From assembly GCA_023131975.1 (NCBI GenBank), contig JAGLYV010000029.1, positions 29,257-93,256 of the forward strand: 64,000 nt of DNA, written 5' to 3'. The notes below the pieces were generated by a model. It was not told the origin of the DNA. It did no database searches and worked only from the letters and a program-made list of their open reading frames with translations. This stretch comes from Candidatus Krumholzibacteriia bacterium. GTDB lineage: Bacteria > Krumholzibacteriota > Krumholzibacteriia > Krumholzibacteriales > Krumholzibacteriaceae. Below, one piece after another: positions 5,371-19,109 of this stretch. Positions within the stretch are counted from its first letter, which is position 1. Each line of letters starts with the position of its first letter. Position numbers and translations under genes: made by a program.

Positions 5371-5574
5371 TTATCCTCCGTGCGCAAGATGGAAGACTAC
5401 CACATTCGAACCACTTTCCAGTTCGTATGAATCATAATCTTCTTCCGGTATGAGGATCTCGTTTACCGTCACGGTGATCAGTACGTAGTCATAGCCCATC
5501 TCGTCGAGCAGGTCCTGGACCGTCATCCCTTCGCGCCATTCAAGTCTGTCCCTGTTATTGACGGTTATCATCAC
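5371..5574 (-). CDS. ThiS/MoaD-like ubiquitin-fold sulfur carrier
   Basis: 67 residues ending in HLAHGG, the C-terminal diglycine that ThiS, MoaD and related carriers need for adenylation and thiocarboxylation. The frame opens with GTG directly followed by ATG, right after the TAA of the ThiF-like gene, and its GGGGAGG ribosome site is inside that gene. The pair thus encodes a carrier and its activating enzyme. By sequence it looks ThiS-like, but it closes a tungsten-enzyme operon and no thiamine genes are near. Donating sulfur for molybdopterin (MoaD role) or tungstopterin is therefore at least as likely; this is inference from context. Confidence 0.8.
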   Translation of the reverse strand: MMITVNNRDRLEWREGMTVQDLLDEMGYDYVLITVTVNEILIPEEDYDSYELESGSNVVVFHLAHGG

Positions 5575-6189
5575 TTATACCTCCCCGCCCGTTATCAGCG
5601 CGATCGCCGTATTGGCCTGGATCGCGGCCGCGATGGCGACTCGTGCGCCGCAGAGGCCGATCTGTGGGTCGGATCGTTCGTCACCGACGATATGGATATT
5701 ACCCGAAGTCCTGAGCTCGATCGACGCGTTGTTTCCGATACCCGCGATGCCGCTGACTCCGATCACCGGCCTGTCAGGGCGCGCGGAACACCATTTTTCC
5801 AGGAGCCAGTGTTTGTCTTCGGCCCTGTCAAATGCTTCGATCAGTATCTGGGCATCTCCATATATCTCAATAAGATTATCGGCTGTGAGCCTTGTGTCGT
5901 GCAGCTTTAGACGGATAGACGGATTGATAGCGCGTAGATGGTCGGCGAGAGCTTCTACCTTGACTCTGCCGATATCGTTCTGGAAAAAATGTTGTCTGTT
6001 GAGATTCGACTCCTCGATGGAGTCGTGATCGACGAGGATGAGATTTCCCACTCCCGCTCTCGTCAGGTACACGGCAGTGTTCGACCCTATACCTCCGCAT
6101 CCGGCTATACCGACAGTCGCGGCAGCGAGTCTTTTCGTAGAGCCGGAGACGTTTCTTTTGAAAATGCCGCTTTCCATATCCATGATCAT
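5575..6189 (-). CDS. ThiF/MoeB/HesA-family E1-like adenylyltransferase
   Basis: 204 residues, the short form of ThiF. The Rossmann nucleotide site VGIAGCGGIGSNTAVYLTRAG is followed by the acidic LVDHDSIEESNLNRQ strand and the conserved Arg/Gln that position ATP. The enzyme should adenylate the C-terminal glycine of the adjacent ThiS-like carrier. No CxxC zinc pairs of MoeB/UBA type are present, and the C-terminus has one Cys (GLCGAR) in the place used by short ThiF proteins. The gene follows the AOR genes by 86 bp on the same strand; the gap contains only a weak hairpin without a T-run, so read-through is plausible. Confidence 0.85.
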   Translation of the reverse strand: MIMDMESGIFKRNVSGSTKRLAAATVGIAGCGGIGSNTAVYLTRAGVGNLILVDHDSIEESNLNRQHFFQNDIGRVKVEALADHLRAINPSIRLKLHDTRLTADNLIEIYGDAQILIEAFDRAEDKHWLLEKWCSARPDRPVIGVSGIAGIGNNASIELRTSGNIHIVGDERSDPQIGLCGARVAIAAAIQANTAIALITGGEV

Positions 6190-6275: not shown

Positions 6276-8276
6276 TTATTCCTGATCGTCTTTTATGATC
6301 TCGACAAGCTCCGGCAGGTCGATGCCGAGTTCTTTCAGGCGTTCGATCTTCGGAACGCCGTTTCTTGTCCAGCCGCGACGGTCGTACGCCGCGTCGACTA
6401 CTTTGTTGTACTGCTCTACCCTGTGTTTTCTGGTAATCTCCATCTTTTCTTCGGTGCTTTTGCCTGTCGGGTCGATGCCGATGATCTCTTTCATCTGTTT
6501 GTCGTAGAGCTTTTCGGCGCGTGACTCATACTCTTCCCCGGTCACAGGGCCGACAGCTCTGTATGGGGGCATATCGTCTTTGCGCGTGCCGTATCCGAGC
6601 ATACGGGACATCACCCGCTGAAGGTTGTGTACACGCGCGGACTGATCCAGCATCTTTTCCTCGTCGAGTGGCTCTCCGGTCATTCCCTCGAAGAACTTGA
6701 AGAAATCCTCTACATGCTCGGGCACCTTTGCCGCCTGCTGCGGAGGGAAATTCTTGTTGGTCGCCGGGACCACATCGTTCCAGATCAGCTTGCAGAGGCC
6801 ATTGAGGCCGAACCATGTACGCCAGAGCGGGTAGTAGTAGAGAGCTTCGGCCTTGTCATCGAAAGATGGTATCTGATTGTTCACCATATCCATGAAGATC
6901 AACCAGGCTTCGTCATGCTGCGGCCCCTTGACTGCCATCGTGTAACCGGCCTGCTGGGCGAGTGATTCCTTGCACACATATTCGGAATACTCGAGCCCCT
7001 TGACTTCCATGCCGATATCCTGCATGAAATCGGCATCGGCGCCCAGTTCCCTGGCCCATTTTCCCTTGAGGTAGCGGATGCCCATTCCGACATCTACTCC
7101 GAATCCTTCACCGAGCGCCATCTCGTGCAGGCACTGAAGGACCTCGGCGGTAGCGCCGAATTTGAGTTCCTTGCCACCGGTAACTTCCTTGTCTATCAGC
7201 CCGTTTTCGAAACACTCCATGACGAATGCCATACATGTACCGACCGATATAGTATCGACTCCGTAGGTATCGCAGTAGAAGTTGTATTCCATAAGGAAAT
7301 CGCCGTCGAAGCATCCCATGTTCGCCGCCGCTGCGGCAGTCTCGTATTCCGGTCCATCGACAGTGACCTTCGAGCCTTTGTAGGGGCCGGTCTTCAGTTC
7401 GAAGCCGTCGACCGTCTTGGCGCAGGCCATCGAACATCCCTTCCAGCAACCGTCCGGCAGTCCCTGTGTCACGTACTTTGCCTTGAGCATCTTCGAGTCG
7501 ATGTTGGGCGTGTCCACATGCTGGCCGAATTTGTAGTTGTGTACGGGCAACAGGTCGTACGCGTCCATCACATCGACGATGTTGGCTGTCCCGACTTCGC
7601 GCATCCTGCACTGTGATTTGTCGAGGGTGGCCATCTCGGCGTTGATCTTCATCCCGTAGTCGCGGATGAGCTTTGCGTCATGGGGCCCGTTCATATCGTC
7701 CACTATCTCAATGGCCCCGGTGGGGCAGACGTAGGCGCAGGACGTACAGCCAATACAATGCGGATCGACCTCGCCGAAGGGCATCGTCATGTGTCTCTTG
7801 ATGCCGCGTCCCGCGAAATCAAGGATCTTTTCCATAACGAATTCCTCGCAGGCGTGGACACAATGTCCACAGAGTATGCAGGCCTTCTCATTCTCGTCGG
7901 TCAACTCTGATTTGTATTTGTCCTTGTCGGTGGCGCCGCAGATGGCCGCGATCTCCTGGATGATGGGAACCTTGGGCCAGCGGCCCAGGTACATCTCGGC
8001 AAGGGTCTTTCGGTGTTTTTTCACCCTTTCAGATGTAGTGTCGACACTGATCTCACCGCGGATCGGGAAGTTACAGGAGGTGACCAGTTTTTTCTTTCCG
8101 TTCTGTTCGATCTCCACGACACAAAGGCGGCATGTGCCCTGAGGTGTGAGATCCTTGTGATGACAGAGGGTAGGGACCGCTACCCCGTTATCCCTGAGTA
8201 CTCCAAGCAGGAAGCTGTCTTTTATTACCTCGGTCTCTCTACCATCGATCTTTATCGTGATTTTCTTTGTAGCCAT
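6276..8276 (-). CDS. NuoG-like Fe-S module fused to AOR domains 2-3 (catalytic half)
   Basis: 666 residues. Residues 1-80 form a [2Fe-2S] ferredoxin (Cys38, 49, 52, 68); two [4Fe-4S] motifs follow (Cys133/136/139/143 and Cys174/177/180/184). This matches the N-terminal part of NuoG or HydA, but the His/Cys cluster usually found around residue 100 is missing (GRWPKVPII there). From about 222 to the end it is AOR domains 2 and 3: GTANIVDV, DGPEYET, YGVDTISVG and GLCKLIW. AOR domain 1 is absent here but starts the upstream gene, so the tungstopterin site must form between two chains. The Fe-S ligands in AOR are spaced C-x3-C-x3-C (277, 281, 285) rather than C-x2-C-x3-C. ATG follows the upstream TAA directly, with GGAGGTG inside the upstream gene. 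Confidence 0.9.
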   Translation of the reverse strand: MATKKITIKIDGRETEVIKDSFLLGVLRDNGVAVPTLCHHKDLTPQGTCRLCVVEIEQNGKKKLVTSCNFPIRGEISVDTTSERVKKHRKTLAEMYLGRWPKVPIIQEIAAICGATDKDKYKSELTDENEKACILCGHCVHACEEFVMEKILDFAGRGIKRHMTMPFGEVDPHCIGCTSCAYVCPTGAIEIVDDMNGPHDAKLIRDYGMKINAEMATLDKSQCRMREVGTANIVDVMDAYDLLPVHNYKFGQHVDTPNIDSKMLKAKYVTQGLPDGCWKGCSMACAKTVDGFELKTGPYKGSKVTVDGPEYETAAAAANMGCFDGDFLMEYNFYCDTYGVDTISVGTCMAFVMECFENGLIDKEVTGGKELKFGATAEVLQCLHEMALGEGFGVDVGMGIRYLKGKWARELGADADFMQDIGMEVKGLEYSEYVCKESLAQQAGYTMAVKGPQHDEAWLIFMDMVNNQIPSFDDKAEALYYYPLWRTWFGLNGLCKLIWNDVVPATNKNFPPQQAAKVPEHVEDFFKFFEGMTGEPLDEEKMLDQSARVHNLQRVMSRMLGYGTRKDDMPPYRAVGPVTGEEYESRAEKLYDKQMKEIIGIDPTGKSTEEKMEITRKHRVEQYNKVVDAAYDRRGWTRNGVPKIERLKELGIDLPELVEIIKDDQE

Positions 8277-11200
8277 TTATATCACCTCCACAGCGTCGAA
8301 ATTGCAGGTCTCGAAACAGATCCCGCACTTGATGCATTTATCTGCCTCGATCACATGGAGTCTTTTCGACTCTCCCGTGATAACCTGCACCGGGCAGGCT
8401 CTCGCGCAGAGGGTGCAGCCGGTACATTTGTCGTTTATCCTGTATGTGATCAGCGCCTTGCAGACACCGGCGCCGCATTTCTTTTCCTTTATATGCTGTT
8501 CGTACTCTTCTCTGAAGTATTTCAGAGTGGAGAGTACCGGGTTCGGAGCCGAGCCGCCGAGCTGACAGAGGCTCGTGTCCCGAACGGTGTCACAGAGTTC
8601 CTCCAGCGTCTCGATATCACCTTCCTTCCCTTCACCAGCGCATATTCGTGTCAGGATGTTGTTCATCAGGTGTAATCCCTCGCGGCAGGCCGTACATTTG
8701 CCGCACGATTCGTCCATCAGGAAATCGATGAAATATCTCGCTACATCGACCATGCAGGTATTCTCGTTCATCACGATCATACCGCCCGAACCCATCATCG
8801 ATCCCGCTTCGGTCAATGAGTCGAAGTCGACCGGCATGTCGAGCATCGACGCGGGGATGCATCCTCCTGAAGGTCCGCCGGTCTGTACCGCCTTGAACTT
8901 CTTTCCGCCGGGGATGCCTCCGCCGATCTCCTCGACGATCTCACGGAGCGTGATGCCCATCGAGACCTCTACAAGTCCGGTGTTCGTTATGTCTCCAACG
9001 AGTGAGAATACCTTTGTGCCTGATGAGCCGCCCCACGGGTTTCCGGAAACGTCTCCCGAACCTATCGAGGCAAACCAGTGAGCGCCCTTCTCGATGATCA
9101 CAGGGATATTGGCCCATGTCTCGACGTTGTTCAATACCGTCGGCTTGTCGCGAAATCCGTATTCGACGTTGTGAACATACTTGGCTCTCGGTTCTCCGGC
9201 CTTGCCGGCCATCGATGCCATCAGCGCGCTTGACTCACCGCATACGAAAGCTCCCGCGCCCCGGTGAATGTGTATTTCGAAGGAGAATCCCTTGCCCATG
9301 ACGTCGTTTCCGAGGATGCCGTATTCGTGGCACTGCTCGATCGCCTTCTGGAGTCTGTCAAGGGCGAGAGGGTATTCTTTCCTGATGTAGATGTATCCCT
9401 CTTTCGCGCCGGTCGCGTACGCGCCTATCAGCATACCCTCTATCACCGAATGGGGGTCGGTCTCGATGATCGACCTGTCCATGAAGGCTCCCGGATCACC
9501 TTCGTCGGCGTTACAGACGACGAAGATCTCCTCACCGCGTTCCAGCGCTGCCTTGCGTCCCGATTCCCATTTGACGCCCGCGGGGAATCCGCCGCCGCCG
9601 CGGCCCCGGATACCGGAGACGATCACTTCCCTGATCACGCCCTCGGGATCTCCACTGCCGATCACGGTACGAAGCGAGGTGTACCCGCCGCGCGCGATGT
9701 AATGGTCTATATTCTCGGGGTCTATAAGGCCCTTGTTCCTCAGGGCGATAAGCTGCTGTTTGCTGAAGAAGGTGATGTCGTCCATCTTCTCGTTCACGGC
9801 GCCCGATACCGGGTCGGTATGCAGGAGTCTTTCGACCACCTTTCCAGTAGCGAGGCTGTCTACGAGTTCTTCTATGTCTTCTTTCTGGACCTTCTGGTAA
9901 AAGGTGCCCGAAGGCTGGATGACCACGATAGGCCCCATAGCGCAGAAACCGTTACAGCCGGTACCTACGACAAGAAAATCTTTCTCCAACCCTTTTTCCC
10001 TGATCACCGAAATCAGGCTGTCGCGGATATCGAAGCCTTTCGCCGACACGCAACCGGTCCCGGTGCATACCATCAGCATATTTTTATAACCGGCTGTTTT
10101 CTCTTTTTCCGCCGAGGCGATCTTTTCCAGATCGTCAGAAGATATTCTGGCGGATTTTTTCGAAGCACTTTTTCCGGCGGTCTTTTTCTTCTTTTCGGCC
10201 TTGCCAGCTTTCTCGAGGAGTTTCTCGACGTCCATGGCCCTTACATTGCCGAATACCTCTTCTCCGATCTTGACGACCGGAGCGATAGAGCATGCTCCGA
10301 GGCATGCGACCGCCTCGAGAGAATACTTGCTGTCTTCCGTAGTCTGGCCAGTCTTCACGCCAAGGACCCTTTCGAACGAGTCGAGTATCTTCGCCGAGCC
10401 CTTTACGTGGCAGGCTGTGCCCATGCAGACCTGGACTATCGTCTCACCTTTTGGCTCCAGGCTGAAAGCCTTGTAGAATGTGGCGATGTGGTAGAGGTGT
10501 GATTTTGGCTTGCCGGTCTTTTTGCACAGTTCATCGATGGCTGTTTTGGATATATGACGGAACCGTTCCTGGATGTCCTGCATCATCTCGATGACGTATT
10601 CGGGGTCGTTGTCCCATTTGTCTATGATGGAGTGGATCTCTTTGATCTCGCCCGCGCACTGCAGGGAGAGTATTTTCGGTTTGATCTGCTCGGCGACCTT
10701 ATTTTCCTCTATGCGCCACGCGGGGTTTATCTGACGGTTTTTAAGTACGAGAGCCTTTAATTTTTTATCGCGGAAGACCGTTCCCGTACCGCCTCGGCCG
10801 GCCTGTTTGATCCGTGGGACGTTCCTGCGCCAGTCCCAGAAGGAGAAGTTGAGAACACCCATGTGAGTGTGCTCGGCTCCCCGGCCCGCGGAGACACAGG
10901 CGATGTTTCTGAGGTCGAGTTCGTCGGCCGCGTACATCACGGCGAGTTCCTCGGCGAGAAGATGGGAATCGACACTTTCCATGGGAGCAGTCTCGATGGT
11001 CACTTTTCCCGCGACCGCGTCTATAAGCACGATGACTTCTCTGTCGGCCTTTCCGGTGACCATCAGCGCGTCAAAACCGGCGAATTTCAGGTATGGTCCG
11101 AAATATCCACCGACATTACAGTCCATCATCGATTTTGTGAGAGGGGAGAGGGCCGTTACTATGGTCTTTCCCGATCCTGGAAATGAAGTCGCTCCGCCCA

Positions 11201-11474
11201 GGGGGCCCGAGGAAAAACAGAGCGGGTTTTCGGGGCTGTCCCACTTCGTGTCTTTCGAGATCTCCTGGAAAGTGAGCCAGAGATCGAAACCCTTTCCTCC
11301 AGTCCACAGTTTTTTCATCTCGTCGCTGACCGGAAGGATGCTGATCTTGTTCTCTCCGATATCCACTCTCAGGGTCCTGCCCGCGTAGCCTTTTTGGAGC
11401 GGGATGACATCGAACGGGAACTCGCAGAGGACCTCGTGTGCTTCTTTCATTTTCAGGATACGCTTGTCTACCAT
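8277..11474 (-). CDS. AOR domain 1 fused to NuoE-NuoF and a 2x[4Fe-4S] ferredoxin
   Basis: 1065 residues from ATG 11474, chosen because AAGGAGG lies 8 bp upstream; the frame is open back to 11528. Order: AOR N-terminal domain (about 30-245; SSGPLGGATSFPGSGK, GGYFGPYLKFAGFDALMV, GRGGTGTVF); NuoE-like [2Fe-2S] thioredoxin fold (CMGTACH near 350, CLGAC near 391); a Lys-rich linker; NuoF with a second thioredoxin-like [2Fe-2S] domain (Cys470 region), FMN/NADH site (GRGGGGFP near 624, CNADEGDPGAF), SLBB region and [4Fe-4S] motif ESCGKCTACREG; and two [4Fe-4S] motifs in the last 60 residues. The chain can hand electrons between NAD(H), FMN and ferredoxin-like clusters. With the next gene it should form an NAD-linked, perhaps electron-bifurcating, aldehyde oxidoreductase (inference from BfuABC and bifurcating tungsten enzymes). 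Confidence 0.9.
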   Translation of the reverse strand: MVDKRILKMKEAHEVLCEFPFDVIPLQKGYAGRTLRVDIGENKISILPVSDEMKKLWTGGKGFDLWLTFQEISKDTKWDSPENPLCFSSGPLGGATSFPGSGKTIVTALSPLTKSMMDCNVGGYFGPYLKFAGFDALMVTGKADREVIVLIDAVAGKVTIETAPMESVDSHLLAEELAVMYAADELDLRNIACVSAGRGAEHTHMGVLNFSFWDWRRNVPRIKQAGRGGTGTVFRDKKLKALVLKNRQINPAWRIEENKVAEQIKPKILSLQCAGEIKEIHSIIDKWDNDPEYVIEMMQDIQERFRHISKTAIDELCKKTGKPKSHLYHIATFYKAFSLEPKGETIVQVCMGTACHVKGSAKILDSFERVLGVKTGQTTEDSKYSLEAVACLGACSIAPVVKIGEEVFGNVRAMDVEKLLEKAGKAEKKKKTAGKSASKKSARISSDDLEKIASAEKEKTAGYKNMLMVCTGTGCVSAKGFDIRDSLISVIREKGLEKDFLVVGTGCNGFCAMGPIVVIQPSGTFYQKVQKEDIEELVDSLATGKVVERLLHTDPVSGAVNEKMDDITFFSKQQLIALRNKGLIDPENIDHYIARGGYTSLRTVIGSGDPEGVIREVIVSGIRGRGGGGFPAGVKWESGRKAALERGEEIFVVCNADEGDPGAFMDRSIIETDPHSVIEGMLIGAYATGAKEGYIYIRKEYPLALDRLQKAIEQCHEYGILGNDVMGKGFSFEIHIHRGAGAFVCGESSALMASMAGKAGEPRAKYVHNVEYGFRDKPTVLNNVETWANIPVIIEKGAHWFASIGSGDVSGNPWGGSSGTKVFSLVGDITNTGLVEVSMGITLREIVEEIGGGIPGGKKFKAVQTGGPSGGCIPASMLDMPVDFDSLTEAGSMMGSGGMIVMNENTCMVDVARYFIDFLMDESCGKCTACREGLHLMNNILTRICAGEGKEGDIETLEELCDTVRDTSLCQLGGSAPNPVLSTLKYFREEYEQHIKEKKCGAGVCKALITYRINDKCTGCTLCARACPVQVITGESKRLHVIEADKCIKCGICFETCNFDAVEVI

Positions 11475-11652: not shown

Positions 11653-11766
11653 CTCTGTATCTGACTGATTGACAGGGTATTCGGCCTGTCTGGTAGATTT
11701 ACGGGAAATTCCGGCATGATGGTCGGGTTACGGGACATTCAGGGTGGTTTGAAAGCGGGTAGGCAG

Positions 11767-12756
11767 ATGCGATCTATGACAGGGTCTTTATTGATTCTGA
11801 TGGTGTTCTTTCTCGCGGTTATCTCGTCGTGCGGAGATGGTGGAGGGGATGGTGGAAAGACCGACCTGGTGATATTCCACGCGGGGTCGTTGTCGGTGCC
11901 GCTCAAACGGATGGCGGCTCTTTACATGGAGAAGAATCCAGAGGTGAACGTCCTTCTGGAAGCTGCCGGCAGTCGGGCGTGCGCGAGAAAGATATCAGAG
12001 CTTGGAAGAGAATGCGATGTCATGGCCTCCGCCGACTATACGGTGATCGATCAATTACTTATTCCTGACCATGCATCGTGGAACATAAAGTTTGCCGGCA
12101 ACGAGATGACGATCGTCTACCATGAAGAGTCGATGAGGTCCGACGAGATCGACGCGGATAACTGGTTCATGATACTGATGGAGGACAATGTCGCTTTCGG
12201 CAGATCCGATCCGAACTCGGACCCATGCGGGTACAGGGCCGTGTTTACGATGCGGCTGGCAGAGACGCATTACGGAATGGCCGGGCTGGCGGATGGATTT
12301 CTGGAAAAAGATAAACGCTACATAAGGCCGAAGGAGACAGACCTGATCGCCCTGCTCGAATCGGGCGTGATCGACTATATCTTTCTGTACAGGTCGGTTG
12401 CTCAGCAGCATGGCCTGGATTATCTGATCCTTCCCAGTGAGATCAACCTGGGGGATCTGGAAATGGCCGGGACCTATGGAAAAGTCTCGGTGGAGATATC
12501 GGGGAAAAAGCCGGGGCACTGGATAGTCAAAAAGGGCGCGCCGATGGTATATGGTGTGACCATACCTTCGAACGCTCCGCATCCGGAGATCGCCCGTTCG
12601 TTTATCGAGTACCTGCTGACCGAAGATATGGGTATGGCCGTGATGACAGAATGCGGCCAGCCATCTGTACTTCCCTCGTATACGGATACCTACGATGCCC
12701 TGCCGGAGAGACTGAGACGATTTGCCCTGCCGGAGAAGCCGGGGAATCAATTATGA
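11767..12756 (+). CDS. wtpA: Tungstate/molybdate ABC transporter substrate-binding lipoprotein WtpA
   Basis: 329 residues from ATG 11767. It begins with a lipoprotein signal (MRSMTGSLLILMVFF then VISSC), so it is anchored outside the inner membrane. The WtpA family signature is clear: VIFHAGSLSVPLKRM, EAAGSRACARKISELG, DVMASADY, FAGNEMTIVYH and GRSDPNSDPCGYR; these segments form the oxyanion pocket. WtpA is known for very tight tungstate binding and six-coordinate metal, which fits the tungsten enzyme encoded divergently. The frame is open to an upstream ATG at 11716, but starting at 11767 gives a compact signal peptide. Its stop overlaps the wtpB start (ATGA). It is the first gene of the long cofactor operon. 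Confidence 0.92.
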   Translation: MRSMTGSLLILMVFFLAVISSCGDGGGDGGKTDLVIFHAGSLSVPLKRMAALYMEKNPEVNVLLEAAGSRACARKISELGRECDVMASADYTVIDQLLIPDHASWNIKFAGNEMTIVYHEESMRSDEIDADNWFMILMEDNVAFGRSDPNSDPCGYRAVFTMRLAETHYGMAGLADGFLEKDKRYIRPKETDLIALLESGVIDYIFLYRSVAQQHGLDYLILPSEINLGDLEMAGTYGKVSVEISGKKPGHWIVKKGAPMVYGVTIPSNAPHPEIARSFIEYLLTEDMGMAVMTECGQPSVLPSYTDTYDALPERLRRFALPEKPGNQL

Positions 12757-13547
12757 GAATATTCCGCGGGGAGATGACGCATCTTGTGTTTGCGGCGCTG
12801 GGCGGGCTCGTGCTGCTCTTTATCATAGCGCCTCTCGCGGGGATGTTTCTGAGCGTCACCCCTGGAGATCTCTCGGAATCAGCCAGCGATCCAGAGGTGT
12901 CGAGAAGTGTCAGGGTCACTCTGTTCACTTCGATGGGAGCCACCCTTATCATGGCTCTTGGTTCCGTGCCGCTCGCCTGGCTGCTGGCCAGGAAAGATTT
13001 TCCACTGAAGCAATTGATAAACGGGATAATCGATCTTCCCATAGTGATACCGCATTCCGCGGCCGGGATAGCTCTGCTCGGGGTGATAGCGAGAGGGACT
13101 CCCATGGGACGTCTCGCCGAAAAAGCGGGGTTCGAGTTTGTCGGTGGTTACGCGGGGATCATGGCGGCGATGGCGTTTGTCAGCGTTCCTTTTCTTGTAA
13201 ACTCCGCGAGAGACGGGTTTGCCGCGGTGCCCAGGCAGCTGGAAAAGGCAGCTCTCAATCTCGGCGCTTCTCCCGTGAGAGTCTTTTTTACCATATCGGT
13301 ACCGCTTGCCTGGCGGTCGATCCTGTCCGGACTGATCCTGATGTGGGCCCGCGGGATGAGCGAGTTCGGTGCGGTCCTTGTCGTCGCGTATCATCCTATG
13401 ATCACGCCGGTCCTGATCTATGAAAGGTTCGGAGCCTTCGGCCTGAAATACGCGCGGCCTGTCTCGGTCCTGTTCGTCACGATATGCCTTCTCTTTTTCA
13501 TCACGCTCAGGGTGATAGCGGGAAGGAGAAGAGATGCTCAGAGTTGA
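12753..13547 (+). CDS. wtpB: Tungstate/molybdate ABC transporter permease WtpB
   Basis: 264 residues starting at ATG 12753, which overlaps the wtpA stop by ATGA; the frame is open further back but within wtpA. It has about six membrane helices (first at about 10-32) and the EAA loop EKAALNLGASPVRVFFTISVPLA that contacts the ATPase. Segments such as DLPIVIPHSAAGIALL are typical of ModB/WtpB permeases. It forms the inner-membrane channel with WtpA outside and WtpC inside. The next gene starts 14 bp before this one ends, so translation is coupled. Confidence 0.92.
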   Translation: MRIFRGEMTHLVFAALGGLVLLFIIAPLAGMFLSVTPGDLSESASDPEVSRSVRVTLFTSMGATLIMALGSVPLAWLLARKDFPLKQLINGIIDLPIVIPHSAAGIALLGVIARGTPMGRLAEKAGFEFVGGYAGIMAAMAFVSVPFLVNSARDGFAAVPRQLEKAALNLGASPVRVFFTISVPLAWRSILSGLILMWARGMSEFGAVLVVAYHPMITPVLIYERFGAFGLKYARPVSVLFVTICLLFFITLRVIAGRRRDAQS

Positions 13548-14649
13548 GGGATTGTCGAAAAGTTTCGGAGCATTTTCGATGAGCGATGTTTCATTCGAAG
13601 TCTCCGAAGGAGAATATTTTGTCCTCCTCGGTCCTTCAGGTACGGGCAAGACTGTCCTTCTGGAGACACTGGCCGGTATGATGGAGGCTGACGATGGCAG
13701 GATCATCCTCCGCGGGAGGGATATCACAAGAGAACGGGTACAGAAGCGGGGAATAGGCCTGGTCTTTCAGGATCAGGCTCTTTTTCCGCATATGACGGCG
13801 CGGGCGAATATAGCGTATGGACTACACGGAAGGGTCGCCGGAAAAGCTGCTATTCAGGCGAGAGTGGAGCAGCTGGCTGAAGAGATGGAAATATCTCATC
13901 TCCTCGAAAGGATGCCGGGTACCCTGTCCGGCGGTGAAGCCCAGAGGGTGGCACTGGCCAGGGCCCTCGGGGCCGAACCGGACTGCCTTCTGCTCGACGA
14001 GCCGCTCTCTTCCCTTGACACGGGCGGCCGTTCGAGGATGAGAGGGTTGCTCCGAAGACTGAACCGGAAGAAGATGACGATAATACATGTGACTCATGAC
14101 TATGAGGAGGCCCTTTCGCTCGCGTCGAGAGTCGGGATAATGGAGGACGGCCGTATCGTTCAGGTCGATTCTCCCGAGAGGATATTTCGCGATCCCGGTT
14201 CCGAATTCGTGGCAAGGTTCATAGGGATAAAGAATTTTTTCAGGGGACGGATAGAGAGGCGGGCAGTCGCGGGTGGAGGAGATCCTGCCGCAGGAGGAGA
14301 CATCGTGGCTGGACGGGTTACTACCGCAGGAGCCGAACCGGTCTTCATATCGGAGGGAATAAAGCTTGATGTCCTGACATCACTGGACGCGGGAGACGCA
14401 GTCGCGGTGATAAGATCCGAGGACATAGTCGTCTCTATCGAACCGGTATCCTCAAGCGCGCGAAATGTGATCGCCGGTGTCATTATAGATATCGTGCCTG
14501 TCCGTGGCGGGGTCGAGATATTGATCGACGCCGGGGTGGAACTGGCCGCCATGGTCACTCCCCGTTCTGTGGAGAGACTCGGGCTTGAGATAGGTACAAA
14601 GATATATTCTTCGATAAAGGCCAGCGCCATAAGGGTGCTCGACGGCTGA
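13534..14649 (+). CDS. wtpC: Tungstate/molybdate ABC transporter ATP-binding protein WtpC
   Basis: 371 residues. The ATPase domain (1-230) has Walker A GPSGTGKT, signature LSGGEAQRVALARAL, Walker B LLLDEP and the switch His in VTHDYEEA. The C-terminal part (about 235-371) has two regions like the TOBE/Mop oxyanion-binding fold (AVIRSEDIVVSIEPVSSSARN; VTPRSVERLGLEIG), which in ModC proteins binds molybdate or tungstate and can inhibit transport in trans. It overlaps wtpB and is followed by the ModE-like regulator gene. Confidence 0.92.
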   Translation: MLRVEGLSKSFGAFSMSDVSFEVSEGEYFVLLGPSGTGKTVLLETLAGMMEADDGRIILRGRDITRERVQKRGIGLVFQDQALFPHMTARANIAYGLHGRVAGKAAIQARVEQLAEEMEISHLLERMPGTLSGGEAQRVALARALGAEPDCLLLDEPLSSLDTGGRSRMRGLLRRLNRKKMTIIHVTHDYEEALSLASRVGIMEDGRIVQVDSPERIFRDPGSEFVARFIGIKNFFRGRIERRAVAGGGDPAAGGDIVAGRVTTAGAEPVFISEGIKLDVLTSLDAGDAVAVIRSEDIVVSIEPVSSSARNVIAGVIIDIVPVRGGVEILIDAGVELAAMVTPRSVERLGLEIGTKIYSSIKASAIRVLDG

Positions 14650-15124: not shown

Positions 15125-15313
15125 ATGGACAGGGAAAAACTGACAGAATTGATTCGGGAAAATGCTCTGGAGAGAGACGGAAAAAAAGTGATGCCGTGCC
15201 CGAAGGCGTTTATGTTGTCCAGAGAATACGGGGTGTCTCTGAAACAGATCGGTGAATGCTGCAATGAGGCCGATATAAGGATATCGAACTGCCAGCTTGG
15301 GTGTTTTAAGTAA
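15125..15313 (+). CDS. Small conserved-looking Cys protein in molybdenum/tungsten operon
   Basis: 62 residues with four Cys: MPCPKAF, then ECCNEADIRI and NCQLGCF near the end. The middle part (FMLSREYGVSLKQIGECCNEA) looks like a helix-turn-helix or winged-helix element. I do not recognise a named family. It is coupled to the next gene (TAATG overlap at 15311-15315) and lies 28 bp after the ModE-like gene. The Cys pattern could hold a metal or Fe-S cluster, which would make it a possible sensing partner for the shortened ModE; this is speculation from position. Confidence 0.7.
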   Translation: MDREKLTELIRENALERDGKKVMPCPKAFMLSREYGVSLKQIGECCNEADIRISNCQLGCFK

Positions 15314-16929
15314 TGAAGACGATTGTGATCGCCGGCGCGCATTCGAACGTAGGCAAGACGGGGCTGGCCGGTCGGATATGTTCGATCGTGAAGGGCGCCG
15401 TTCATATAAAGATCGGACATGGCCCTGTAAAGAAGGATATGGACAATATCTTTTTTCCCCAGGGTACGCCATTTCGAGAGATACTGGAGAGATACGATGA
15501 CGCGCCGTTTCTTGTGATAGAAAGTGGAGCGATCACCGCGGAGTTCGAACCGGACTGCCTTATCTATCTTCCCGGTGGTGAACCGAAGCCGGGCGCGGAT
15601 GAGATCAGAAAGGTCGCTGATCTTGTCCGGGGCGAGTCGGCCGGATCGGGCAGGTTCGCTGTCCTGGCTGGAAGGCTGGGCCTGTCGCTGGATACTATCG
15701 GCCGGATCGCGGATGCCGCGGAAGTTCAGACAGAGGTGGATAAAACTGTGAAAGAGATGATTACGTTCGATGAAGCGTTTGCGGCAGTCATGACTTCGGC
15801 ATCACCGCTCGGAAGCGAGGAGGTATCCCTCGATGATGCTGCCGGCAGGGTTCTTTTTGAAGATATTCTCTCCGATATGGATATGCCGCCCTTCGACAAG
15901 TCGGCGATGGACGGGTACGCCTGCAGGAAGATCGATCTTGCTGCCCCGATGAAGATCGTCGCCACGCTTCCCGCAGGAGAACTCCCAACGGTTGAGATCG
16001 ATTCTGGCGAATGTGTGAAAATAATGACAGGGGCCGCCGTTCCGGCAGGAGCGGATGTGGTAGTGAAGGTGGAGGACACGGAAGAGTCCGGCGGGATGAT
16101 GACGGTCACAGGAAAAAGCAACGCGATAAACATATGTTACAGGGCAGAAGATGTCTCGGCCGGGGATACGGTCCTTCGCTCCGGCAGCTTGATCGGGCCG
16201 GTGGAGATAGCGGTGCTGGCCGCCGTCGGCCGAACGACCATAAAGGTCTTCAGAAAACCAAGGATCGGGATCATCGCTACCGGCAGCGAGCTGGTGGAGC
16301 CCGGAGAAAAGCCGTCGGGAGCACAGATCAGAAACAGCAACAGCTATCAGCTTGTTGCGCAGGCAACCCTCGCCGGGTTTGATGCCGCATATATGGGAAT
16401 CGCGGGAGATTCTCCGGAAGAGATTGCCACAGCTCTTGATGGAGCCGCGGCTTCATCTGACATCGTGATCCTGTCTGGAGGCGTCTCCATGGGAGACTAT
16501 GATTACGTTCCCGGAGTGATAGAGAAGAACGGTTTCGATATCCTTTTTCGCAAGGTCGCCATAAAGCCCGGCAAGCCCACTGTCTTTGCCAGGGGAAAGG
16601 ATAAGTTTATTTTCGGCCTGCCCGGCAACCCCGTGTCGACCTTCGTACTCTTCGAGATACTTGTGAGACCGTTCGCGTCGCTGTTGATGGGGATGGATTA
16701 TGATCCCGTAAAGGCGATGGTCAGGCTGTCTGTTCCGGTCACAAGGAAAAAGGCCGTGAGGAAATCTTATATCCCAGTTGTTCTGGATGGCACCGGGACT
16801 GCCGGTCCGGTCGAGTATCATGGTTCCGCGCATATCCACGCCTACGCGGGCGCCGACGGTATCATCTCGATGGAGCCGGGAGTGAGCCGTCTGGAAAAGG
16901 GCGAAGAAGTGGATGTGATCCTGCTATGA
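15313..16929 (+). CDS. moeA: P-loop (MobB/CobB-like) domain fused to molybdopterin molybdenumtransferase MoeA
   Basis: 538 residues, longer than MoeA alone (about 400). Residues 1-140 form a SIMIBI P-loop domain (IAGAHSNVGKT, closer to CobB/BioD than to classic MobB). Residues about 145-538 are MoeA: DMPPFDKSAMDGYA, IMTGAAVPAGADVV, GIIATGSELVEPG, LSGGVSMGDYDYV, FGLPGNPVSTFVLFEI, with the C-terminal beta domain. MoeA inserts the metal into adenylylated molybdopterin; the N-terminal domain may bind GTP for dinucleotide formation or have another role. AOR-type enzymes use a bis-pterin site without an added nucleotide, so the MobB-like part is of interest. Overlaps its neighbours on both sides. 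Confidence 0.9.
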   Translation: MKTIVIAGAHSNVGKTGLAGRICSIVKGAVHIKIGHGPVKKDMDNIFFPQGTPFREILERYDDAPFLVIESGAITAEFEPDCLIYLPGGEPKPGADEIRKVADLVRGESAGSGRFAVLAGRLGLSLDTIGRIADAAEVQTEVDKTVKEMITFDEAFAAVMTSASPLGSEEVSLDDAAGRVLFEDILSDMDMPPFDKSAMDGYACRKIDLAAPMKIVATLPAGELPTVEIDSGECVKIMTGAAVPAGADVVVKVEDTEESGGMMTVTGKSNAINICYRAEDVSAGDTVLRSGSLIGPVEIAVLAAVGRTTIKVFRKPRIGIIATGSELVEPGEKPSGAQIRNSNSYQLVAQATLAGFDAAYMGIAGDSPEEIATALDGAAASSDIVILSGGVSMGDYDYVPGVIEKNGFDILFRKVAIKPGKPTVFARGKDKFIFGLPGNPVSTFVLFEILVRPFASLLMGMDYDPVKAMVRLSVPVTRKKAVRKSYIPVVLDGTGTAGPVEYHGSAHIHAYAGADGIISMEPGVSRLEKGEEVDVILL

Positions 16930-17738
16930 CGATCGATGGACATGGAAGAAATATCGATTACCTGAGGATATCGGTGACGGACAGGTGCAACTACCGTTGT
17001 GTCTACTGCATGCCCGAAGAGGGGGTAAGGTTGAAGGGACACGATGAGATCCTCACTTTCGAGGAGATCGTCAGGATAGCGGGTGCTGCCGGAGAACTCG
17101 GTTTCAGAAAGCTCAGGCTCACCGGTGGCGAACCGCTTGTAAGAAAAAATATAGAACGGCTCGTGGGGATGATCAGCAACACCGGGTACTATGACGATAT
17201 TTCGATGACGACCAACGGCACGATGCTCAGCCCTGTCCTCGCCCTGACTCTCAGAGACGTGGGACTCAGCAGGGTCAATATTTCTCTCGATACCCTCGAT
17301 TCCGGGCGGTTTGCGGAGATTACGAGGGGCGGCGACATCGATGATGTATTTGCCGGAATCGAAGCGGCGAAGAGGGCCAGGTTCGATCCCGTGAAGATAA
17401 ATATGATCATATTCGATACGACTACGATGGAGGAAGTCGAATCGATGAGGGCCTTCTGCGGGGAGCACGATCTCCTGCTTCAGACGATAAAGCATTTTTC
17501 CCTGTACAGGATGGTCGACAGCGGGCAGGTCCATTCGTTCGACAGGCCGATGCCCTGCAGCAGGTGCGACAGGCTCAGGTTGACGGCCGATGGTTATTTC
17601 AAGCCCTGTCTGTTTTCGGATCACGAGATCAAGGTAGACATGGACGATATAAAGGGATCGATACTGAAGTCCGTCAGGGAGAAACCTCTTGAGGGGAGCT
17701 CCTGCTGCAACAGGTCGATGTATCAGATCGGAGGGTGA
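16926..17738 (+). CDS. moaA: GTP 3',8-cyclase MoaA, short form
   Basis: 270 residues; MoaA is normally about 325. The radical-SAM motif CNYRCVYC follows ISVTDR, LTGGEPL binds SAM, and the C-terminal cluster CSRCDRLRLTADGYFKPC plus the terminal IGG are kept. About 55 residues are missing between the barrel strand INMIIFDTT and the C-terminal cluster, the part that usually contains ELMPVG and the linker. All cluster ligands, the RLRLTADG Arg residues and the diglycine needed for the second step are present, so it is probably active. It catalyses the first step of molybdopterin synthesis with MoaC. ATGA overlap with the moeA fusion. Confidence 0.92.
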   Translation: MTIDGHGRNIDYLRISVTDRCNYRCVYCMPEEGVRLKGHDEILTFEEIVRIAGAAGELGFRKLRLTGGEPLVRKNIERLVGMISNTGYYDDISMTTNGTMLSPVLALTLRDVGLSRVNISLDTLDSGRFAEITRGGDIDDVFAGIEAAKRARFDPVKINMIIFDTTTMEEVESMRAFCGEHDLLLQTIKHFSLYRMVDSGQVHSFDRPMPCSRCDRLRLTADGYFKPCLFSDHEIKVDMDDIKGSILKSVREKPLEGSSCCNRSMYQIGG

Positions 17739-17780
17739 TCCACGCGGGGGACCCTGGTAAAACGTTGACTGGAGGACAGC

Positions 17781-18233
17781 ATGAAGAAATTTTCGCATAT
17801 TGGTCAGACCGGAGAAGTGAAGATGGTAGATATCTCCGGCAAGGAGATCGAGAAACGTACGGCGGTCGCCGCCGGAGCCATCCTGATGTCGAAAGAGACT
17901 GTCGCCATGATAGGTGAGGGCCTGCTGAAGAAGGGCGACCCGCTGGCGACCGCGAGGATAGCGGGGATAATGGCTGCGAAGAAGACATCCGACCTGATCC
18001 CTCTCTGTCATCCGCTTCCGATAGCAAAAGTCGGAATCGATTTCAATGTGGGTGTGGACAGGATCGATATCGAGGCGACGGTAGTGACGACGGCGAGGAC
18101 AGGTATCGAGATGGAAGCGCTTACAGCGGTCGCGGTCGCGGGACTTGCCATATATGATATGTGCAAGGCTGTGGACAAGTCCATGACGGTCTGCGAGATC
18201 AGGCTTGTAAGCAAAAAGAAGGAAAAGAAGTGA
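17781..18233 (+). CDS. moaC: Cyclic pyranopterin monophosphate synthase MoaC
   Basis: 150 residues, full length. Typical blocks are MVDISGKEIEKRTAVAAG, ARIAGIMAAKKTSDLIPLCHPLP (with the catalytic His and Cys-His pair) and GIEMEALTAVAVAGLAIYDMCKAVDK. It converts the MoaA product into cyclic pyranopterin. A GGAGGA site precedes the ATG. Its stop overlaps the GTG start of the MOSC gene. MoaD and MoaE, which act next in the pathway, are not in this run of genes. Confidence 0.95.
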   Translation: MKKFSHIGQTGEVKMVDISGKEIEKRTAVAAGAILMSKETVAMIGEGLLKKGDPLATARIAGIMAAKKTSDLIPLCHPLPIAKVGIDFNVGVDRIDIEATVVTTARTGIEMEALTAVAVAGLAIYDMCKAVDKSMTVCEIRLVSKKKEKK

Positions 18234-18670
18234 AAAAGAGATTCAGGGTATTGTCGGTGAATATTTCCGCCGAAAAGGGCACGGTGAAAAAACCGGCCGA
18301 AGAGGTGAAGGTCATCGCCGGTCAGGGGATGGAGGATGACGCTCACGCGGGGGACTGGCACAGGCAGGTCTCCCTTCTCGCCATAGAGGACATCGATACG
18401 ATGCGGGCGAAGTTACCGGAGATCTCTCCCGGGGATTTTGCGGAAAACATCACCACCGAGGGAGTCGAGCTCCCCACACTTCCGATAGGCACGGTCCTTT
18501 CGATAGGAGATGTGAAACTCGAAGTGACGCAGATCGGAAAGGACTGCCACGCGGGTTGTGAGATACTGGCAAAGACCGGCGAATGTGTCATGCCGAAGAG
18601 AGGCATCTTTGCCAGAGTGCTTGAAGGCGGGGTGATCTCAAGTGAAAGTGTTGGTTCTTACGATATCTGA
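18230..18670 (+). CDS. MOSC-domain protein
   Basis: 146 residues from GTG 18230, which overlaps the moaC stop and has AAGGAA 6 bp before it. The sequence GQGMEDDAHAGDWHRQVSLL, PGDFAENITTEG and the Cys region KDCHAGCEI are classic MOSC. MOSC domains bind sulfur-carrying or molybdenum-cofactor ligands; stand-alone bacterial ones are found beside MoaB/MogA and are thought to handle or sulfurate the cofactor. The gene overlaps mogA by 29 bp, a common MOSC-MogA arrangement. Confidence 0.9.
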   Translation: MKKRFRVLSVNISAEKGTVKKPAEEVKVIAGQGMEDDAHAGDWHRQVSLLAIEDIDTMRAKLPEISPGDFAENITTEGVELPTLPIGTVLSIGDVKLEVTQIGKDCHAGCEILAKTGECVMPKRGIFARVLEGGVISSESVGSYDI

Positions 18671-19109
18671 CAGGGCGCACAGGGGAGAGTACGAGGACCT
18701 CTCGGGGCCGGCCGTAGAAAAGATCCTTCTGGAGGGTATGGAAGATACCATTGTGGAGAGAGCGATCGTTTCAGATGACGAGCCTGATATCGAAAATGTT
18801 CTCAGGGCTTCGGGGACCTTCGACATCATACTCACCACCGGTGGGACCGGTCTTGGGCCCCGCGACGTCACCCCGGAAGCGACCCAGCGAGCCTGCGACA
18901 GGATCATTCCCGGGATAGGAGAATATCTGCGCGGCGAATCTCTCCGTGAGACGAAGTCGGCTGTCGTGTCGAGGGGGACAGCCGGGATGATAGGAAAAAC
19001 GATAGTAGTAAACATGCCCGGTTCTGTAAAAGGTGCTTCGTTCTGTGCCGGGCTTCTTGTGGACATTCTTCCCCATGCCCTGGCTATGGCCAGGGGAGAG
19101 GGGCATTGA
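18642..19109 (+). CDS. mogA: Molybdopterin adenylyltransferase MogA/MoaB family
   Basis: 155 residues. TISDRAHRGEYEDLSGP, TTGGTGLGPRDVTPEAT and MPGSVKGASFC are hallmark segments. The enzyme activates molybdopterin with ATP so that MoeA can insert molybdenum or tungsten. The start is GTG at 18642, within the MOSC gene, so the two are translationally coupled. MogA and MoaB cannot be told apart with certainty from sequence alone. Confidence 0.9.
   Translation: MKVLVLTISDRAHRGEYEDLSGPAVEKILLEGMEDTIVERAIVSDDEPDIENVLRASGTFDIILTTGGTGLGPRDVTPEATQRACDRIIPGIGEYLRGESLRETKSAVVSRGTAGMIGKTIVVNMPGSVKGASFCAGLLVDILPHALAMARGEGH

Follow-up and report, generated by a model that had tools for sequence, protein, structure and literature searches.

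How does an enzyme of the aldehyde oxidoreductase (AOR) family work when its gene is interrupted at a domain boundary by an electron-transfer cassette? The question is raised by two adjoining minus-strand genes at positions 6276 to 11474 of a 64,000-nucleotide stretch of Candidatus Krumholzibacteriia bacterium DNA (assembly GCA_023131975.1, contig JAGLYV010000029.1, positions 29,257 to 93,256), here called the window. AOR-family enzymes are not known to be built with the buried metal-pterin site divided between two polypeptides. We put at roughly 0.7 the probability that the window encodes an AOR-family enzyme with domain 1 and domains 2-3 on two chains and a complete Bfu module between them, the chains likely forming one tungsten-bis-pterin site with predicted output to nicotinamide adenine dinucleotide (NAD) and ferredoxin. 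This reading draws on the order of the genes, the domains and their ligands, AOR site residues found in each of the two chains, conservation in distant genomes, and cofactor and metal genes nearby. A sequence-only reading had seen here an AOR gene opened at its domain boundary by a diaphorase module; the opening is borne out, and the cassette resembles the bifurcation modules of the Bfu/HydBC type more than it does a plain diaphorase.

Two chains and their junction

Domains were assigned with Pfam on both chains, and their order agrees with that first read from the open frames: AOR domain 1, NuoE, NuoF and two [4Fe-4S] on chain 1, then the NuoG N-terminal domains and AOR domains 2-3 on chain 2. 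Every domain named at that stage is present, although one had been passed over, a thioredoxin-like [2Fe-2S] domain between NuoE and NuoF. The chain 1 gene (8277 to 11474; 1065 amino acids, aa) opens with AOR domain 1 (AFOR_N, residues 32-245, 10740 to 11381), followed directly on its 3' side by a P251-x-W253 tail motif (10716 to 10724) that emerged from comparison of residues specific to the split forms. Next come the NuoE/BfuC thioredoxin-like [2Fe-2S] domain (residues 281-422, 10209 to 10634; C350, C355, C391, C395, by Pfam and ligand alignment) and the thioredoxin-like [2Fe-2S] domain of BfuB (residues ~463-550, 9825 to 10088; C470, C475, C507, C511 by alignment), taken as B5. The NuoF/BfuB core (8490 to 9719) holds the flavin mononucleotide (FMN)/NADH site, an SLBB domain, the B1 [4Fe-4S] ligands C924, C927, C930 and C970, and the B2 ligands C907, C945 and H994. 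Pfam places Complex1_51K at residues 620-791, NADH_4Fe-4S at 910-994 and Fer4 at ~1011-1061; the SLBB score in the window, 25.3 bits, is below Pfam's 27, and the domain is listed for a 93% identical relative (P0121). Two [4Fe-4S] clusters, B3/B4 (8292 to 8444; Pfam and alignment), with B2 ligands C1000 and C1005 just upstream, form the predicted ferredoxin exit.

The chain 2 gene (6276 to 8276; 666 aa) joins a BfuA/NuoG-type N-terminal part to AOR domains 2-3. Its start consists of the NuoG-type [2Fe-2S] domain A1 (Fer2_4, residues 4-82, 8031 to 8267; C38, C49, C52, C68) and two [4Fe-4S] (residues ~129-190, 7707 to 7892; C133/136/139/143 and C174/177/180/184), all placed by Pfam and alignment, so that "NuoG N-terminal domains" was the correct label; the Cys/His [4Fe-4S] domain of complex-I NuoG was not among the Pfam matches of the chain. 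AOR domains 2-3 (AFOR_C, residues 209-652, 6321 to 7652) were assigned by Pfam, alignment and a structural model, with T230, E310-Y311-E312, Y433 and H454 at the site and C277, C281, C285 and C495 for its [4Fe-4S].

The two frames abut at 8274 to 8289, where no gap separates the chain 1 TAA (8277-8279) from the chain 2 ATG (8274-8276), and the last chain 1 codons contain GGAGGTGAT (8281-8289), which looks like a ribosome site for chain 2 placed within the 3' codons of its neighbor. Chain 1 has AAGGAGG 8 nucleotides 5' of its own ATG (11474). Among relatives, GGAGGT lies close to the chain 2 start in 31 of 46 rows, the other 15 belonging mostly to a Cloacimonadota four-gene group together with some reduced or three-gene forms, and V-E-V occurs among the final four residues of chain 1 in 105 of the 120 relatives listed.

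The split in other genomes and its gene states

The split arrangement is real, neither chance nor an assembly artifact. A contig scan gave at least 80 loci, of which 46 are of the split type (L005-L050) and 34 are intact AORs of ~720 aa (L051-L084). AFOR_N lies upstream on its own frame in 36 of the 46 split loci, truncated by the end of the contig in L038 and L042; in the remaining 10 the contig ends downstream of the expected AFOR_N position. No frame in L005-L050 holds both AFOR_N and AFOR_C. Both fused proteins that the sequence-only reading proposed to look for recur: AFOR_N, NuoE and NuoF stand together in one protein in 111 of 120 chain 1 relatives (the best 120 of 1976), and AFOR_C accompanies a NuoG-type [2Fe-2S] domain in 120 of 120 chain 2 relatives (the best 120 of 7999). 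Chain 2 is found in 17 of 80 genomes of the window's own phylum, some identical to loci already in L005-L050; it is complete or nearly so in 14 (with an internal stop in G019), cut by contig ends in G034 and G043, and in two pieces in G018.

An assembly error, frameshift or decaying gene, the explanation most directly opposed to this, could draw on one relative (L009/L094) with an in-frame stop near residue 78 of chain 2, on a low-coverage contig (cov 2.25), where sequencing error or decay may be at work. The break, the order and the conserved residues are alike in dozens of genomes, on contigs as large as 2.15 Mb (L019) and 1.03 Mb (L097), and the ribosome-site-like motif recurs at the chain 2 start; the relatives have refuted this explanation, and its probability is practically nil. 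Two worries raised at the outset fall with it. The arrangement is not confined to one genome, and it is not an assembly artifact of an intact AOR elsewhere: the window genome, 96% complete, has two AFOR_N and two AFOR_C, which pair off as one intact 600-aa AOR on another contig and the split locus. A hidden single-chain fusion was considered and rejected, for the 1785-aa open frame in G015 (L093) has its NuoF in another frame.

Record titles of split loci include Krumholzibacteriota, Acidobacteriota, Aminicenantes, KSB1, Cloacimonadota, Deltaproteobacteria, Sumerlaeota, Eisenbacteria and Bacillota, and further Bdellovibrionales, Myxococcota, Muiribacteriota, Elusimicrobia, Phycisphaerae, Armatimonadota, Coatesbacteria, Fermentibacteria and one Thermoplasmatota archaeon, among others. 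Because most of these records are metagenome bins, single taxon names may be wrong. L024 (titled Clostridia) and L026 (titled Dojkabacteria) have identical match coordinates and scores, and at least one of the two bins is likely misassigned.

A complete NuoE-NuoF-NuoG cassette inside an AOR, as first described, holds for the window; related genomes show separate genes or reduced forms. Four genes (AFOR_N / NuoE / NuoF / NuoG_N-AFOR_C) are present in L045 and L047, and in L042 with partial AFOR_N; three (AFOR_N-NuoE / NuoF / NuoG_N-AFOR_C) in L010, L016, L020, L022, L023, L024, L027, L030, L035, L037, L048, L050 and L026, the last a near-copy of L024; and two in the window, L005-L009, L014 (with NuoE shortened), L018, L019, L021 and L031, plus reduced forms. 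With stand-alone domain 1 as query, the best 120 of 1192 matches comprised 85 with AFOR_N only, some of which look like fragments of intact AORs, 27 with AFOR_N and NuoE, and 8 with AFOR_N and AFOR_C.

Reduction takes several shapes. In L012, L015, L041 and P0224, domain 1 and the NuoF core are retained, NuoE is limited to its first part, and the C-terminal 4Fe-4S pair is missing; in the reduced diaphorases of L012, L013, L015, L041 and L098, NuoE is short and the thioredoxin-like and C-terminal 4Fe-4S cysteines were not found, so that these proteins are likely NAD-only or degenerate. L012 and L041 also have a changed FMN glycine loop. Shorter chains (895-913 aa) with NuoE, NuoF and the 4Fe-4S pair occur in L028, L032 and P0232, the thioredoxin-like cysteines not being found in L028, and L039 has domain 1 with a trace of the NuoF cluster domain. 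At the Coatesbacteria locus L046 (7192-9977), a 264-aa domain 1 gene is followed directly by a NuoG_N-AFOR_C gene, and the locus gave no NuoE, NuoF, ThiF or ThiS match. Since the diaphorase has been lost in some relatives that are still split, the split outlives it.

A predicted bifurcation module and a probable divided active site

The cassette is predicted to be a Bfu/HydBC-type bifurcation module. From residue 463 onward, the closest proteins to chain 1 are HydB/BfuB (700-717 bits for 7t2r_B, 7q4v_B, 8a6t_B and 9mqx_B), and the BfuB part is 44-58% identical to solved HydB/NfnB/BfuB chains. The predicted chain 1 model (predicted local distance difference test, pLDDT, 73.7; predicted template modeling score, pTM, 0.68) best matches 9mqx_B at 51% identity, in a comparison whose listed matches were filled by the NuoF part, with AOR domain 1 not represented. 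Residues 1-194 of chain 2 are closest to BfuA of the bifurcating tungsten enzyme of Acetomicrobium mobile (9mqx_A), which aligns over the stretch of the NuoG Cys/His domain with few gapped residues.

The ligands point the same way. The B2 ligands of the NiFe enzyme are C438, C476, H525, C531 and C536; the B2 histidine is reported for BfuB with just 8 exceptions among 1558 sequences, and non-bifurcating homologs, which retain B1 without B2-B5, do not have it (PMC9304861). By alignment, the window equivalents are C907, C945, H994, C1000 and C1005, and chain 1 has every C1, B1, B2, B3/B4 and B5 ligand. It carries the domains that define BfuB (FMN 51K, SLBB, NADH_4Fe-4S, 4Fe-4S), a NuoE-type BfuC is present, the BfuA part has at least the [2Fe-2S] and a 4Fe-4S domain, and B2-B5, with the B2 histidine, are there as ligand sets read from sequence rather than as clusters. 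Across 164 aligned chain 1 and NuoF rows (drawn from loci and from database proteins, with some duplicates and some truncated at contig ends), all eight B3/B4 cysteines are found in 147, every one of which has the B2 histidine and 140 of which have C-(C/T)-H-C-C; every tested cluster set is present in 105.

A simple NAD(H)-linked enzyme, whose diaphorase feeds NAD only and whose extra clusters are relics, would account for the 14 of 164 rows, some incomplete or misaligned, that keep B1 and fail the NuoE, thioredoxin-like, B2 and B3/B4 tests. This B1-only pattern matches that described for non-bifurcating homologs (PMC9304861), and Pfam also finds NuoE cut to its first part and no C-terminal 4Fe-4S pair in L012, L015, L041 and P0224. 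Such an explanation is improbable for the window, where the full set of C1 and B1-B5 ligands is retained with the B2 histidine.

Residues that map to the cofactor site of Pyrococcus furiosus AOR are distributed over both chains and conserved. On domain 1, N120 corresponds to the Mg ligand Asn93, K103 to Arg76, and K223/Q224 to Arg182/Ala183; N120 is retained in all 35 readable rows, and further residues on the cofactor side are conserved as well. The WOR/WorL second shell is described as Thr243, Glu313, Tyr427 and His448 with four [4Fe-4S] cysteines (PMC13328260); the counterparts on chain 2, T230, E312, Y433 and H454 with C277, C281, C285 and C495, are invariant in 48 of 48 rows. The cluster motif is CX3CX3C in the window (residues 277-285), as in the split and intact forms of the scan, and CX2CX3C in P. 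furiosus AOR, apparently an odd spacing of this AOR clade.

Conservation of that second shell also bears on the possibility that the AOR part carries out another reaction, whether physiological acid reduction or conversion of a non-aldehyde substrate. Bfu enzymes have been hypothesized to be reversible (PMC9304861), BamB shows that the AOR fold is capable of other chemistry (PMC12096430), and the neighboring genes are cofactor genes that give no hint of a substrate. BamB is reported without the aldehyde second-shell residues that all 48 rows keep (PMC12096430), and we consider a different reaction unlikely.

That the two halves form a single site is suggested by their shared history. Pairwise distances in AFOR_N and AFOR_C correlate across 34 split loci with r 0.862 (0 of 5000 permutations), as they do in 33 intact AORs (r 0.843). 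Split forms and the ~720-aa intact AORs group together against 14 other AORs in both trees (support 99 and 100). Because every AOR outside this group in the tree sets is intact, the split would be the derived state, and approximately unbiased (AU) tests do not reject one split clade, which had higher likelihood when enforced (p-AU 0.66 and 0.62). On descent from a WorL of the A. mobile type, a profile of the intact relatives scored 227 bits with 1aor and 197 bits with 9mqx_D.

The tail of domain 1 adds a marker. A tryptophan directly after the domain (W253) is present in 36 of 36 split rows and in 0 of 34 intact ones, and P-x-W in all 112 chain 1 relatives with a readable tail; at the cut-offs used, nine split-specific columns fall in domain 1 and four in the longer domains 2-3. 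Among the matches listed for stand-alone domain 1, P-x-W is seen in 61 of 85 AFOR_N-only and 17 of 27 AFOR_N-NuoE chains, those without it having short tails, a shifted tryptophan, or being pieces resembling intact AORs. As the sole mark of a split form, P-x-W proved too strict, being absent from 9 AFOR_N-NuoE and 10 AFOR_N-alone chains; all 9 of the former and 3 of the latter keep a tryptophan at or beside that place, and the remaining 7 appear to be intact AORs in fragmented or frameshifted form. We hypothesize that the tryptophan tail could dock the two chains.

Halves without a common active site, with domain 1 serving some other role, such as cofactor handover, and chain 2 working alone, would suit the stand-alone AFOR_N genes (85 of the 120 matches listed for the four-gene-form query, some being contig fragments) and the chain 2 model, which by itself resembles AOR domains 2-3. 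Against such a division stand the retained Mg ligand and cofactor-side residues of domain 1, the co-variation of the halves as in one-piece AORs, and the archaeal bin G086 (the genome of L048), where, as far as sequenced, the sole AFOR_N and sole AFOR_C detected are the split ones. It is very unlikely, and the catalytic site would then be one assembled from two chains.

Several observations weigh against this two-chain bifurcating enzyme as drawn here. Pairwise distances of the halves correlate with those of NuoF at r 0.35 and 0.34 (26 loci), far below the value between the halves, and some relatives that lack bifurcation clusters or the whole diaphorase stay split, which means that bifurcation is not the sole correlate of the split. 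The free AFOR_C tree puts intact L055, L071 and L080 among early split lineages (97), and the free AFOR_N tree puts split L045-L048 with intact rows (98); as the free trees have no single split clade, a single origin and a four-to-three-to-two gene order are fits, not proofs. The chain 2 model is middling (pLDDT 71.8, pTM 0.60), with pLDDT below 50 in the ferredoxin part (136-183) and in active-site loops 275-286, 425-437, 449-457 and 497-503, which fits a missing partner and cofactors and also a shallow alignment of 16. In the open-licence PubMed Central (PMC) literature, no published activity, metal content or complex was found for a member of the family.

If the two-chain reading holds, the tungsten site that oxidizes an aldehyde would form where domain 1 of chain 1 closes over domains 2-3 of chain 2. 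Electrons would pass from tungsten to the AOR [4Fe-4S] and on to the two [4Fe-4S] and one [2Fe-2S] of chain 2, internal clusters that would take the role WorS has elsewhere; they would then cross to B1 and FMN on chain 1, where bifurcation at the B2/C1/FMN core would direct half to NAD and half through B2-B3-B4 to ferredoxin. Since each chain would have two contacts with the other (NuoF/NuoG and AOR domain 1/domain 2), the pair may form an interlocked heterodimer, which would fix the distance from tungsten site to flavin. WorS sits between WorL and the A-B-C plug in class IV tungsten enzymes (PMC13328260), and because BfuA is fused to the AOR part in the window, WorS may not be needed. Coupling to NAD has been argued to let aldehyde oxidation proceed where ferredoxin alone is insufficient (PMC13328260). 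As a likely origin, a bfuC-B-A string would have entered an AOR gene where its domains meet, or an equivalent rearrangement would have placed it there, after which gene fusions reduced four genes to three and then two.

Neighboring genes and comparison with known systems

The surroundings give an indirect hint of a metal-pterin enzyme. Chain 2 is followed on the minus strand by a ThiF/MoeB-like adenylating enzyme (5575 to 6189; matched in 30 of 46 split and 6 of 34 intact loci) and a 67-aa protein ending in Gly-Gly (5371 to 5574; matched in 36 of 46 and 20 of 34), which, also from its position, is presumably of the ThiS/MoaD-like family and WorX-like. The plus strand carries a divergent operon with transporter genes (11716 to 14649; binding protein, permease and TOBE-domain ATPase), whose substrate is likely tungstate or molybdate, and pterin-cofactor genes (15313 to 19109), in which Pfam identifies MoeA (15313-16929) and MoaA (16926-17738). 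The frames up to 19109 are presumably MoaC-, MOSC- and MoaB/MogA-like. AOR-MoaD-MoeB gene neighborhoods are known (PMC1779556), and such a ThiS-like gene has been named worX (PMC13328260). No separate WorS or WorL lies beside the two chains in the operon; for WorS, the search covered the operon rather than the rest of the genome.

Elsewhere in the genome are RnfC, five matches to the POR domain of 2-oxoacid:ferredoxin oxidoreductases, and two NuoF-type genes (610 and 623 aa) that have NuoG-type frames (1097 and 1111 aa) next to them on G000 contigs C98 and C126. These last seem to be further Bfu-like modules with conventional separate genes; FeFe-hydrogenase gave no match in the window genome. 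Given this set, ferredoxin and NADH likely have other users. Further off in the window, a weak heme-NO-binding (HNOB) match at 1777-2412 (20.0 bits, cut-off 25.5) stands beside a histidine kinase at 276-1763.

The sequence-only reading knew of no such interrupted AOR, and no report of a split AOR was met in the open-licence PMC literature, a scope that leaves aside subscription papers, preprints and supplements. Tungsten Bfu and class IV enzymes are described with an intact large subunit, and the 2026 census took sequences with both AOR domains (PMC13328260). Since these had to lie in one protein, split proteins were excluded, and the words "split", "fusion" and "interrupted" are absent from the main text of that paper. 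The Bfu tree left 17 BfuB clades without function (PMC9304861), so the BfuB of the split form may be among them unrecognized. We lean toward a further class of tungsten oxidoreductase that spans many phylum names, one of them archaeal, and went uncounted in the census, its site rebuilt at the interface of interlocked chains, with a tryptophan tail in place of the peptide link and WorS dispensable. The census rule leaves a blind spot for these enzymes, which are widespread in uncultured anaerobe lineages, and a two-chain site would be coupled to a bifurcation module through gene architecture alone. The series of states, from four, three and two genes to reduced forms and no diaphorase, offers natural variants for the roles of the split, of WorS loss and of each cluster.

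The closest AOR relatives found are the intact ~720-aa enzymes, as in Thermotalea metallivorans and Anaerosolibacter carboniphilus, with mean identity of 50% in the N-terminal and 60% in the C-terminal part; they have the same site residues and CX3CX3C motif on one chain, and no NuoE, NuoF or NuoG match above 25 bits lies in the DNA available for any of the 34 loci. This intact clade, for which no assigned function was found, is more than 100 residues longer than P. furiosus AOR. By definition, WOR/WorL have IPR013983 and IPR001203 in one protein, whereas the window has them, judged by Pfam equivalents, in two. FeFe-HydABC and other Type 1 Bfu enzymes share with the window a catalytic domain fused behind the BfuA iron-sulfur domains, but in them that domain is on BfuA only (PMC9304861), whereas here it is shared between the BfuA and BfuC-BfuB chains. 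Type 2 (Wor-Bfu) enzymes feed BfuA through extra separate subunits, and the window, with none beside its two chains, does not fit. The class III AOR of Aromatoleum aromaticum (AorABC) and the class II benzoyl-CoA reductase (Bam) link an AOR-family subunit to NAD(H) via partners, as in the window, yet keep the catalytic subunit intact, and AorABC has a flavin adenine dinucleotide (FAD) subunit. Among the nearest known systems are the Wor-Bfu class IV enzymes (A. mobile AmWOR1, PDB 9mqx; Eubacterium limosum WOR1), in which an AOR-type part is likewise joined to BfuA, BfuB and BfuC; the BfuA of 9mqx, the nearest solved one, also has no insert corresponding to the NuoG Cys/His cluster domain. Class IV combines one intact WorL, a four-cluster WorS and separate A, B and C proteins (PMC13328260), whereas the window has a divided AOR, with one half fused to C-B and the other to A, and no WorS in the operon.

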